Shown piece after piece: positions 2,672 to 21,730 of a stretch of 64,000 nt of DNA. The stretch comes from Verrucomicrobiota bacterium. GTDB lineage: Bacteria > Verrucomicrobiota > Verrucomicrobiia > Chthoniobacterales > Chthoniobacteraceae. Below the pieces are notes generated by a model. It was not told where the DNA came from. It made no database searches and worked only from the letters and a program-made list of their open reading frames with translations. Position 1 is the first letter of the stretch. Each line of letters opens with the position of its first letter. The DNA lies in NCBI GenBank assembly GCA_009885995.1, contig VFJQ01000052.1, positions 1 to 64,000 of the forward strand. The letters are read 5' to 3'. Made by a program: the position numbers and the translations under genes.

Positions 2672-3385
2672 TCAGCGGCTCGGCGCCTTCTGCGCCCGTC
2701 CCGTCATCGGCACGAAGCGCACCGGCAACACCGCGCGGCGTTCCACCTTGCCCCCGCGCTTCACCAGCAGATGCAGCTCCTGCGCGCCCGCCTCGCCCAC
2801 CGGGATGATCATCCGCCCGCCGTCCTTGAGCTGATCGATCAGCGGCTGCGGCACGTGATCCGGCGCGCACGTCACGATCACCGCATCGAACGGCGCCTGC
2901 TCCGGCCAGCCCTGGTAACCATCGCCCGTCTTCACGTGGACATTGCCAAACCCCAGCCGCCGAAGATCCGCCGTGGCGCGCGTCGCCAGCGGCTCCACGA
3001 TCTCGATCGTGAAGACTTCCGCCACGAGCCTCCCCAGCACCGCCGCCTGATACCCCGACCCCGTGCCGATCTCCAGCACGCGGTCGCCCGGTTTCGGCGC
3101 GAGCTGCTCGGTCATGAAAGCTACGATGTAGGGCTGGGAAATCGTCTGCCCGTGCCCGATCGGCAGAGGCCCATCCGAGTAGGCAAAGCGGCGAACTTCC
3201 TCCGGGATGAATTCATGCCGTGGCACCTCGCGCATCGCCTTCAGCACCCGCGCATCGCTCACGTCGCGCGCCGCGATCTGCTCCTTCACCATCGCCTCGC
3301 GGTCCGCGGCGAAGTCCCCACTCGGTGGCTCCGCCCGGCACGACGCGAAGGCGAGGACGGTCAGCAGGAGCAGGTGACGTTTCAT
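2672..3385 (-). CDS. pcm: Exported protein-L-isoaspartate O-methyltransferase
   Basis: Transfers a methyl group from S-adenosylmethionine to isoaspartyl residues of damaged proteins so that they can be repaired. The SAM-binding motif I is VLEIGTGSGYQAAVLGRL (about 103-120), preceded by the conserved IGHGQTISQPYIVAFM. Unlike the common cytoplasmic form, this 237-aa protein begins MKRHLLLLTVLAFASC, a short signal peptide ending in a lipobox-like cysteine (C16), so it is probably a periplasmic lipoprotein. How SAM would be supplied there is unclear; exported pcm homologues are nevertheless known in several phyla. ATG at 3385 opens the signal peptide and is preferred to the upstream in-frame start at 3505. 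Confidence 0.9.
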   Translation of the reverse strand: MKRHLLLLTVLAFASCRAEPPSGDFAADREAMVKEQIAARDVSDARVLKAMREVPRHEFIPEEVRRFAYSDGPLPIGHGQTISQPYIVAFMTEQLAPKPGDRVLEIGTGSGYQAAVLGRLVAEVFTIEIVEPLATRATADLRRLGFGNVHVKTGDGYQGWPEQAPFDAVIVTCAPDHVPQPLIDQLKDGGRMIIPVGEAGAQELHLLVKRGGKVERRAVLPVRFVPMTGRAQKAPSR

Positions 3386-3477: not shown

Positions 3478-3675
3478 GCCGCAGCGCCGAAGGCGCGGCA
3501 GACATTAGCCCCGGGCGTCAGCCCGGGGTAAACCGCCCCCCAGGAAATCAGCCCCGGAGGGGCGGCAGAACCCTTCGCCTCGCTCTGTCGCCCCTCCGGG
3601 GCTGGGTCGTTTGAGGATGGGAATCCCCGGGCTGACGCCCGGGGCTAATCTCTGCCGTCCCTGCGGGACTCAACG
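3478..3675. repeat. Nested inverted-repeat unit, copy A
   Basis: A 198-bp unit that recurs at 3793-3993 with high identity. It is a double hairpin. The outer arms run from GGCAGACATTAGCCCCGGGC on the left to a near reverse complement ending CCCGGGGCTAATCTCTGCC. The inner arms are CAGCCCCGGAGGGGCG and CGCCCCTCCGGGGCTG. It ends in CTGCGGGACTCAACG. It contains no open reading frame with protein-like composition. It resembles the palindromic intergenic repeats spread through some bacterial genomes; whether it is mobile, a structured RNA or a terminator cannot be told from two copies. Confidence 0.85.
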
Positions 3676-3683
3676 TCGGCCCC

Positions 3684-3734
3684 GCGAAGCAAAGCTTCGC
3701 CCGCACTTGCGTTCCCAAACGGAGTTTGGAAACG
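3684..3734. repeat. Two short palindromes between the repeat copies
   Basis: GCGAAGC-AAA-GCTTCGC (3684-3700) is a perfect 7-bp stem. It is followed by CGTTCCCAAAC-GGA-GTTTGGAAACG (3710-3734), an 11-bp stem with one mismatch. They sit in the spacer between the two ~200-bp repeat copies and may belong to the same or a second repeat family. The rest of the spacer to 3792 shows no gene. Confidence 0.7.
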
Positions 3735-3792
3735 AGGAGAATCACCGCGACCGAGGGTCATTCGCCCCGAAGCCGGGGTGCGCGACCCCGGT

Positions 3793-3993
3793 GCCGCAGC
3801 GCCGAAAGGCGCGCCAGACATTAGCCCCGGGCTTCAGCCCGGGGAAAACCGACCCCTGACGGGAATCAGCCCCGGAAGGGCGGCAGAACCGTGCGCCTCG
3901 CTCTGTCGCCCCTCCGGGGCTGGGTCGTTTGCGGATGGGAATCCCCGGGCTGACGCCCGGGGCTAATCTCTGCCGTCCCTGCGGGACTCAACG
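3793..3993. repeat. Nested inverted-repeat unit, copy B
   Basis: A 201-bp direct copy of the unit at 3478-3675 with scattered substitutions (for example GGGCTTCAGCCC for GGGCGTCAGCCC). It keeps both the outer and inner inverted arms. Its right end overlaps the last codons of the YdcF-like gene and supplies that gene's TGA stop at 3988-3990. The element therefore abuts or was inserted at the gene's 3' end, or serves as its transcription end. Confidence 0.85.
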
Positions 3994-4666: not shown

Positions 4667-6100
<1,434 letters not shown>

Positions 6101-6124: not shown

Positions 6125-6146
6125 CGCATCTACGCATCGTGATGGG
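6125..6146 (-). promoter_or_regulatory. Motif shared with the metK upstream region
   Basis: On the minus strand the site reads CCCATCACGATGCGT followed by AGATGCG. It matches 17 of 22 positions of the site at 16752-16773 upstream of metK. It has CATC/GATG symmetry and lies 25 bp upstream of the ahcY start. A common regulator of SAM-cycle genes is the likeliest explanation. Confidence 0.55.
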
Positions 6147-6205
6147 ATGATGGATGCAATGGACACCCCGGATCGTCAAAGAGTTTTTCCGGCCCCGAAG
6201 ATCGG

Positions 6206-15531: not shown

Positions 15532-15551
<20 letters not shown>
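12525..15551 (+). CDS. MASE1-type membrane hybrid histidine kinase with receiver
   Basis: A 1008-aa sensor. The first ~300 residues form a multi-span membrane module of MASE1 type ([41 protein letters not shown]). A coiled coil follows ([20 protein letters not shown]), then two PAS modules (about 360-480, 490-610). The kinase core has H-box [20 protein letters not shown] (His near 633), and a C-terminal receiver has Asp in [11 protein letters not shown]. The core and receiver align almost block for block with the preceding gene, down to the last residues ([21 protein letters not shown]), indicating duplication. Its stop overlaps the metK 3' end by 20 bp in convergent orientation. Confidence 0.93.
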
Positions 15552-16704
<1,153 letters not shown>

Positions 16705-16751: not shown

Positions 16752-16773
16752 CCCATAGACGCATCAGGATGGG
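16752..16773 (-). promoter_or_regulatory. Inverted repeat upstream of metK, shared with ahcY
   Basis: On the minus strand it reads CCCATCCTGATGCGT then CTATGGG. With flanking bases the ends form perfect 7-nt arms AACCCAT/ATGGGTT around 12 bp. It matches 17 of 22 positions of the ahcY site at 6125-6146. It lies 47 bp before the metK start. Confidence 0.6.
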
Positions 16774-16787
16774 TTGATACGTGTATC
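16774..16787. promoter_or_regulatory. Palindrome TTGATACGTGTATC upstream of metK
   Basis: GATAC-GT-GTATC has perfect 5-bp arms and lies directly beside the shared metK/ahcY motif. The 12-mer TTGATACGTGTA recurs in the opposite orientation at 19423-19434 upstream of the PQQ-propeller gene. It is a candidate second operator. Confidence 0.45.
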
Positions 16788-16883
16788 GGCCAGCGCCGGG
16801 CGTCAACCCGCTATTTCCGAGCGCCGATGCAAGCGAATCGCTGCCGCGAGATCGGACAGCAAATCGGCTCCAGCGGCCGCCGG

Positions 16884-19437: not shown

Positions 19438-20367
19438 TTAGTGAGCCTTCACGCCCGTCGCGAGCACGGTCTGGAACTGCGGGTTCTGGTCGTCGCGCGC
19501 CACGACGGCCACGTCGATGTCACGGAAGCCCGCGTTTTCCAGGAACTCGTGGAGCTGCGCCTCGGTGAAGCCGAGCCACGTGTCCGCGTAGAGATCGCGC
19601 GCTTTGTCGAACTGGTGCGCGAGCAGGTCGAGAACGGCGATGCGGCCGCCGGGCTTGAGGATGCGGTGCGCGGCGGCGACGGCGCGGGCCGGGCTCTGCG
19701 CGTGGTGGAGCGCCTGGCTGAGGATCGCGACATCGACCGACTCGGGTTTGATCGGTGGTTCATCGAGGTCGCCGAGCCGGTATTCGAGATTTTTGATGCC
19801 GTTGTCCTTTGCGAGCTGCACGCCGAACTCGACCATCTTCTCCGAGTTATCGACGCAGATGACCTTCTTCGCCCGGCGTGCGAGGAACTGCGAGAGTGTG
19901 CCTTCGCCCGCGCCGAGGTCGGCGATGGTGAGTTCGGGCACGAAGGTGAGCAGCAGGTGCGCGAGGCCTTGCCACGTGCGGCCGGGGCAATACGTGCGTC
20001 CAAATTTGCCGGCGAGCTGGTTGAAATACTCGCGCGCTTTGTCCTGCCGCTTGTGCAGCGCGAGCTTGAGAGCGCGGGCATCGGCGGCGGAATCGGGAAG
20101 TTCCTTCGCGCTCGCGTCGAGGATGGTTTGCAACTCGGCGTCGTTCGCCGCGGGGGTGAGGGCGTAGTAGATGTTTTTACCCGCGCGCCGGTCGCGCACG
20201 AGCCGCGCCTGGCGGAGCTGGGCGAGGTGGGTGGAAATGCGCGACTGGCCCATGCCGAGGATCTCCTGGAGTTCGACGACTGAGAGCTCCTCGCGACGGA
20301 GGAGGAGCAGCAGGCGCAGACGCGTTTCATCGGCGAGCAGGCGCAGGATTTTGACGATGGAGGGCAT
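19438..20367 (-). CDS. ArsR-family regulator fused to a SAM-dependent methyltransferase domain (SahR-like)
   Basis: A 309-aa fusion. Residues 1-90 form an ArsR winged helix (LLADETRLRLLLLLRREELS, EILGMGQSRISTHLAQLRQA, GKNIYYAL). Residues ~140-300 form a class I methyltransferase fold (LTIADLGAGEGTLSQFLA, VICVDNSEKMVEFG, ILSQALHHAQSPARAVAAAH). No ArsR-type metal cysteines are visible. The same two-domain layout occurs in SahR, the ArsR-family regulator of SAM-cycle genes described in Proteobacteria, where S-adenosylhomocysteine is the effector. Proximity to metK and the motif shared with ahcY support that reading, which remains inference. It starts 4 bp after the FHA-kinase stop. Confidence 0.85.
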   Translation of the reverse strand: MPSIVKILRLLADETRLRLLLLLRREELSVVELQEILGMGQSRISTHLAQLRQARLVRDRRAGKNIYYALTPAANDAELQTILDASAKELPDSAADARALKLALHKRQDKAREYFNQLAGKFGRTYCPGRTWQGLAHLLLTFVPELTIADLGAGEGTLSQFLARRAKKVICVDNSEKMVEFGVQLAKDNGIKNLEYRLGDLDEPPIKPESVDVAILSQALHHAQSPARAVAAAHRILKPGGRIAVLDLLAHQFDKARDLYADTWLGFTEAQLHEFLENAGFRDIDVAVVARDDQNPQFQTVLATGVKAH

Positions 20368-20371
20368 GCCG

Positions 20372-21730
20372 CTACGGGTTCGCCCGGAACCACCCGCCGA
20401 AAAGCCCAGCCCGCTGCTTCTCCTCGAACTGGCTGCGCTGCACGTCGACCGCCAGCTCGCGCACGGTGCGGTGGCGGTCGGCGGGGTTGAGCGAGAGCGC
20501 TTTCATCGCGACGGCGGAGAGCGATTCGGGGAGCTTGCCGTCCGGCAGATGCGGCAGGGGGCGCGTGCCGAGGAGTTCCATGGGCGAGGGGAAGCTGCCG
20601 GCGATGACCTGGTCGAAAATCTCACCCGCGTCCGCGCCGCTCACGGGCGGGACGAGCGTGAGGATGTGGTAAAGCATAGCGCCGAGTGCATAGACGTCGG
20701 CCTTCGCATCGACCTGGTGCGAGCGGCCGCTGGCCTGCTCGGGGGACATGAATTGCGGCGTGCCGATCGCGCGACCGGCCATGGTGAGAAACTCGCCACC
20801 TTCGTCGTCGTGGCGCACGGAGCGGACCATGGTGCGGGCGTTGTCGCGCTCGGTGGCGGTGTTTGCGTCGCGACCGAGCGCCTTGGCGAGGCCCCAGTCC
20901 ATCACGAGCACGTCGCCATAATCGCCGAGCATGATGTTCTCCGGCTTGAGGTCGCGATGCACGACGCCCTTCGAGTGGGCGTAGGCGATCGCGTCGCAGA
21001 CCCGGAGCAGGACCTCGAGCAACTCACCGAGCGGCCAGCGTTTCGCCGCTTCGCCCCGACCGGCGTTAAGCGCGAAGAGCACATCGCCGAGCGATTCGCC
21101 GCGCACGAGTTTCATCGTGTAAAAGGGTTTGTCCTGCTCGTTCACGTTGAGCTCGTAGATCGGGACAATGTTCGGGTGCTCGAGCTGGGCGGTGATCTGT
21201 GCCTCCTCGACGAAGCGCGCGATGTCCTCTGGCGTCTGCACGTTGAGCAGCACCTTCATCGCGACCGGCCGGCGCGTGGCGAGATCCTCCGCGGCGAGCA
21301 CCGCGCCCATGCCGCCGATCGCGATCAGCTCGTTGACCTTGTATTTGCGATCGCTGCGCAGTTCCGCGGGCAGGAAGCGCACGACTGCCGCGGTCTGGGG
21401 AGCGAGCCTTACGTCGGAGTGGTCGATCGGCAGGCGGCGCAGATGCAGATGCACGTTGCCCGCGCGGAGATCCTGGCCGGGGAAGATCATCGTCGGTTCC
21501 TCGATGCGCCCGCCGGCGACCCACGTGCCGTTTGAGCTGCCGAAGTCCTCGATCGACCAGTCGAAGTAGTTCAGCGAGAGCTGGCCGTGGCGGCGCGAGA
21601 CCTTGGCGGAATCAAGCTGGATGTCGCAGGCGGCTTCGCGCCCGATCACGTAATCTCCGGGCGGGAGGAGTTGTTTGAAAACCTCCCGACCTTCGAGTGT
21701 GGCTGTGATCTCGGTGAGCGGAACAATCAT
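20372..21730 (-). CDS. FHA-domain serine/threonine protein kinase
   Basis: A 452-aa cytoplasmic kinase. The N-terminus is a forkhead-associated domain that would bind phosphothreonine: YVIGREAACDIQLDSAKVSR RHGQLS, then DFGSSNGTWV. The Hanks-type kinase follows (about 145-430): glycine loop IAIGGMGAVLAAED, Lys in VAMKVLL, catalytic VVHRDLKPENIMLGD, metal-binding DWG (the usual DFG) in VLVMDWGLAK, GTPQFMSPEQASGR and DVYALGAMLYHIL. There is no membrane segment or extracellular sensor, unlike PASTA-type kinases. It lies 4 bp upstream of the ArsR-methyltransferase gene and is probably co-transcribed, which raises the possibility that it phosphorylates that regulator. Confidence 0.93.
   Translation of the reverse strand: MIVPLTEITATLEGREVFKQLLPPGDYVIGREAACDIQLDSAKVSRRHGQLSLNYFDWSIEDFGSSNGTWVAGGRIEEPTMIFPGQDLRAGNVHLHLRRLPIDHSDVRLAPQTAAVVRFLPAELRSDRKYKVNELIAIGGMGAVLAAEDLATRRPVAMKVLLNVQTPEDIARFVEEAQITAQLEHPNIVPIYELNVNEQDKPFYTMKLVRGESLGDVLFALNAGRGEAAKRWPLGELLEVLLRVCDAIAYAHSKGVVHRDLKPENIMLGDYGDVLVMDWGLAKALGRDANTATERDNARTMVRSVRHDDEGGEFLTMAGRAIGTPQFMSPEQASGRSHQVDAKADVYALGAMLYHILTLVPPVSGADAGEIFDQVIAGSFPSPMELLGTRPLPHLPDGKLPESLSAVAMKALSLNPADRHRTVRELAVDVQRSQFEEKQRAGLFGGWFRANP

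Follow-up and report, generated by a model that had tools for sequence, protein, structure and literature searches.

A palindromic operator common to metK and ahcY points to a SahR-type SAM-cycle regulon in Verrucomicrobiota

The 64-kb stretch of DNA analysed here (the window) encodes two enzymes of the SAM cycle and a putative regulator, all on the minus strand. The S-adenosylmethionine synthetase gene metK (15532–16704, 390 aa) was identified by TIGR01034 (563 bits, cut-off 309) and Pfam, and the S-adenosylhomocysteine hydrolase gene ahcY (4667–6100, 477 aa) by TIGR00936 (619 bits, cut-off 498) and Pfam. The gene at 19438–20367 encodes a SahR-like protein of 309 aa, in which an N-terminal ArsR helix-turn-helix is fused to a SAM-dependent methyltransferase domain, the architecture of the SahR family (PF01022, 51.8 bits; PF08241, 82.5 bits, both above cut-off; NF033788). 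Its SAM-binding motif ADLGAGEGT and the VDNS-KM loop are invariant across eight regulator orthologues, which suggests that the SAM/SAH pocket is likely intact. The regulator gene starts 4 bp past the end of a gene for an FHA-domain Ser/Thr kinase on the same strand (20372–21730). Within 506 bp (3483–3988), the window also holds four copies of the Acido-Lenti-1 RNA (RF01687) that alternate in orientation; this family has 13 places above its cut-off in the genome, several of them clustered.

The preliminary description of this DNA noted a 22-bp motif upstream of both metK and ahcY. The metK copy, CCCATCCTGATGCGTCTATGGG, lies at 16773–16752 on the minus strand and ends 47 bp upstream of the start codon at 16704; the ahcY copy, CCCATCACGATGCGTAGATGCG, lies at 6146–6125 on the same strand and ends 24 bp upstream of the start codon at 6100. 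The two are identical at 17 of 22 positions, as had been described. Both copies were correctly placed, but the borders of the 22-bp motif slice through a longer palindrome, with the ideal core ATTGACGCATCATGATGCGTCAAT, which in relatives lies in the intergenic region of the regulator gene and metK. In the window, the 24-bp cores of the putative operators are ATCAACCCATCCTGATGCGTCTAT at 16755–16778 (metK) and ATCATCCCATCACGATGCGTAGAT at 6128–6151 (ahcY), both on the minus strand, with informative flanks that extend the matrix windows to 16752–16781 and 6125–6154. The sequence GATACACGTATC adjoining the metK site was considered as the operator proper and rejected, as its overlap with the conserved palindrome is confined to the left flank.

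Taken as a pair alone, the likeness of the two sites is mildly surprising and only suggestive: agreement at 17 of 22 positions was reached in 10 of 2000 shuffles of both 150-bp upstream regions. Evidence from relatives was therefore needed. For this, a symmetrised 30-bp matrix was built from 35 metK sites of relatives, the own genome being left out of the training. The ahcY site scored 28.8 bits and the metK site 27.3 bits, the first and second ranks in the window, and the third-ranked position scored 3.3. The maximum over 100 simulated 64-kb windows was 14.3, and none of 148 reversed upstream regions scored above 1.4. With the relatives included, both window sites are far beyond chance.

Targets elsewhere in the own genome were searched for with pattern scans, and the matrix was used for scoring the window, upstream regions and fetched loci. 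When up to three mismatches to the operator pattern were allowed, three places in the own genome had 0 or 1 mismatch: the sites of ahcY and metK (the latter with 0 mismatches) and C33:31505–31528, the core of which lies 47 bp upstream of the ATG of metH (identified by TIGR02082). The other four matches had three mismatches each, and their loci scored at most 2.2 by the matrix. The short pattern CCCATCNNGATGCGT with one mismatch was found at 18 places in the own genome vs 4 in reversed controls; with the full operator, only metK, ahcY and metH remain, so that scatter over the genome, which would have spoken against a regulon, was not seen at the level of the full operator with at most one mismatch. 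A third exact copy of CCCATCNNGATGCGT (C132:44604), at an unrelated MBL-hydrolase/recN start, has a full-matrix score of 0.0. The matrix found no site upstream of the own metF, and none upstream of the own regulator gene, which speaks against autoregulation through this operator in the own genome. Given its place 4 bp after the kinase gene, the regulator gene may be co-transcribed with the FHA kinase and no longer autoregulated.

A stricter pattern with one mismatch allowed was then run over 57 related genomes. It returned 64 rows, three of which repeat a palindrome already counted on the other strand, leaving 61 distinct sites; the reversed-control pattern gave zero matches over the same 57 genomes. 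All 61 sites could be assigned to metK/sahR junctions, unlinked sahR, unlinked ahcY, metH or, in one case, metF (L192). The site at the end of contig G032:C16, identical in sequence to the metH site on G032:C138, was taken to duplicate it. By the matrix, an upstream site was present in 23 of 30 for metH and in 1 of 30 for metF, and metF was rejected as a general member of the regulon. The expectation that the motif would concentrate at methionine-cycle genes was thus borne out, and the target set first proposed is amended: metH joins metK and ahcY, while metF generally stands outside. Across the whole bacterial group, the palindrome is almost confined to the upstream regions of SAM-cycle genes. 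In one genome (G051, L198 1994–2017), the operator is flanked by rplS and a cobalamin-adenosyltransferase-like gene, past which metH follows on the same strand; this arrangement gives a hint that the regulon can take in B12 supply.

To follow the regulator itself, 80 loci from named genomes were fetched by the regulator alone; one scan found relatives of it encoded at no fewer than 550 loci. The closest named records with the regulator belong to Chthoniobacteraceae and other Spartobacteria of the phylum Verrucomicrobiota. The usual order in relatives is an ArsR-methyltransferase gene divergent from metK, with ahcY following metK and the palindrome between the regulator gene and metK. A divergent metK was present in 71 of the 80 regulator loci, and 70 of these 71 junctions, all from named Verrucomicrobiota records, carry the operator, so the motif is conserved before orthologues as had been anticipated. 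A metK site is present in 43 of the 49 regulator-bearing genomes vs 0 of the 5 that lack the regulator (p = 1.5e-4), and a separate site accompanies ahcY in 9 of 9 cases outside the metK operon vs 0 of 10 inside it (p = 1e-5); both p-values are guides only, because related genomes are not independent. The weakest site among the unlinked ahcY genes, in G021, scored 15.5, and the six remaining genomes with the regulator had no metK site above 10 bits. The own genome belongs to the split type: here ahcY lies apart from metK behind an operator of its own, and the relocated regulator gene lacks one. A quick ahcY tree, made without bootstrap, requires four or more switches in linkage to explain its starred branches; split ahcY genes have thus gained, or retained, an operator of their own on more than one occasion.

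These observations support and extend the original reading of metK and ahcY as a SAM-cycle regulon, with conserved sites at SAM-cycle genes in relatives and metH added; the sequence comparisons support the view that the common motif is a real DNA operator. The ArsR-methyltransferase is most likely its reader, being the best candidate because most relatives encode it divergently from metK and because metK sites are missing where the regulator is missing. A real SAM-cycle operator read by some regulator other than this linked protein is improbable. It would accommodate the own genome, where the regulator gene adjoins no site, and G031 (86% complete), where an ahcY site is present and the regulator was not found. 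Against it, in most genomes the regulator gene and metK point away from each other on either side of the site, in one genus the regulator genes that are unlinked bear a site of their own, and the metK sites are absent in all five genomes without the regulator.

Promoters predicted by a consensus scan bear on how the operators would work. The predicted -35 boxes of metK (TTGACG, 16801–16806, minus strand) and ahcY (TTGACG, 6174–6179, minus strand) both lie 28 bp before the operator core, and the geometry is the same in relatives, where the -35 is mostly at -20 to -31 and the -10 near the operator edge. The predicted -10 has the operator at its downstream edge, a position from which a bound dimer would be expected to prevent initiation. 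At sahR, 67 of 74 loci have the predicted -35 at core position +1, and the -10 is usually at +23 or +25; the operator thereby fills the predicted promoter. The geometry at sahR, metK and ahcY fits repression. Meanwhile, the predicted -35 of metH lies downstream of the operator, +30 to +33 from the core start, at 15 of 23 sites including that of the own genome. A conserved TTTGTNNCTTGA-like stretch that resembles a -35 follows metH operators (L011 near 3006–3029; L206–L229); such a stretch downstream of the operator is seen at metH, unlike at metK, ahcY and sahR. At metH, the bound protein could hinder the polymerase or activate. Since the metH operator stands just upstream of the predicted -35 at a near-fixed distance, the same regulator may activate this gene, and we tentatively raise the possibility, for which we would give about one chance in four, that the position of the operator decides which of two roles it plays: that of a repressor at metK, ahcY and sahR or that of a SAM/SAH-gated activator of metH.

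The same geometry speaks against the motif being an RNA element of the 5' untranslated region, such as a small SAM/SAH riboswitch or a leader hairpin. The sites do lie 24–50 bp upstream of the starts, and the metK copy, being palindromic, could fold into a short stem (AACCCAT...ATGGGTT). However, the site would lie outside the transcripts of sahR, where it overlaps the predicted promoter, and of metH, where the promoter is predicted downstream of it; in addition, one palindrome serves two divergent genes simultaneously. A SAM or SAH riboswitch before metK, ahcY or metH was searched for with curated covariance models in the window and in 11 further sequences (the own metH, and metK from ten relatives in which the site is weak, diverged or missing), and there was no Rfam match, in agreement with the earlier statement that no known riboswitch core of this kind was seen. 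We regard an RNA element as very unlikely. In the regulator-less genomes G005, G016 and G021 (L108, L109, L113), metK is preceded by neither an operator nor an Rfam riboswitch. A chance resemblance between two upstream regions can be practically dismissed: the shuffles that matched the pair and the third exact CCCATCNNGATGCGT are answered by the 0.0 full-matrix score of that copy, by the 27–29 scored by the two sites vs the simulated maximum of 14.3, and by the sites and junctions of the relatives.

The system resembles those known from Proteobacteria. SahR is an SAH-responsive ArsR regulator that recognises a 20-bp palindrome and has sahR, ahcY, metH, metF and metK as core targets (Leyn et al. 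2014, PMC4239095). SamR of Xanthomonadales is a distant SahR relative with a 24-bp palindrome and metK, without ahcY, in its regulon (PMC4239095). SahR motifs are reported as varying between taxa. Like SahR, the protein described here is of the ArsR family, has putative SAM-cycle targets (sahR, ahcY, metK, metH) and a palindromic operator, and is often linked to these targets. The system appears to work like SahR, and the protein fits the SahR family by architecture and targets. From the sequences compared, it differs in operator, gene order and the general lack of metF: judged by the published description of the 20-bp SahR site, the operator here is set apart as a palindrome of 24 to 30 bp built around ATCNNGAT, neither a proteobacterial-type 20-bp operator nor metF as a core target was found (1 of 30, a taxon-specific rather than a defining trait), and the regulator gene is typically divergent from metK-ahcY. 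With SamR it shares a SahR-like protein, a 24-bp palindrome and metK among the targets; unlike SamR, whose gene stands with metH1/metH2, it has ahcY as a target, and the common SamR/SahR consensus is ATC-10 nt-GAT whereas the centre here is ATC-2 nt-GAT.

Homologues in more distant bacteria have the same two domains, nearly full-length homology and the same target enzymes nearby. The ArsR-methyltransferase gene of Leptospira interrogans adjoins ahcY and metH; among alphaproteobacterial homologues (Shinella and two Methylobacterium), metF adjoins all three and metH both Methylobacterium genes. Two homologues compared at full length share 31–33% identity with the window protein and 29% with one another, so that the alphaproteobacterial and Leptospira proteins appear about equally distant (29–33%). 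The palindromes upstream of the Leptospira and alphaproteobacterial genes, GATATCAAGATATCTTGATATC and ACATAAAGATATCTTTATGT, differ from the operator here and score -3.0 to 10.0 by the matrix vs 17 to 44 for the training metK sites. As the operator is unlike those before related regulators elsewhere, the family is a good case for shifts in the DNA specificity of ArsR proteins.

Taken together, both window sites are very probably operators of the SahR-type factor encoded at 19438–20367, which would sense SAH or the SAM/SAH state and control the SAM cycle. The ArsR-HTH/methyltransferase protein would bind the metK and ahcY operators, and its methyltransferase-like domain would read the SAH (or SAM/SAH) state, with SAH as the presumed effector. 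The bound dimer would block initiation at metK and ahcY and so repress them. On accumulation of SAH, the protein would leave the DNA, and metK, ahcY and metH would be made, closing the SAM cycle. Most relatives have a single operator, situated between metK-ahcY and the regulator gene that faces away from them, which would serve both sides.

In the literature searched, with most subscription papers outside the search, we found no earlier account of SAM-cycle control in Verrucomicrobiota. Our analysis would carry a SahR-type circuit described in Proteobacteria over to another phylum, where the DNA code differs, and names a likely regulator, an operator code and targets for lineages known mostly from metagenomes. 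The relatives also offer a natural experiment, in which an unlinked ahcY always has its own operator (9 of 9 sampled) and a genome without the regulator has no metK operator.
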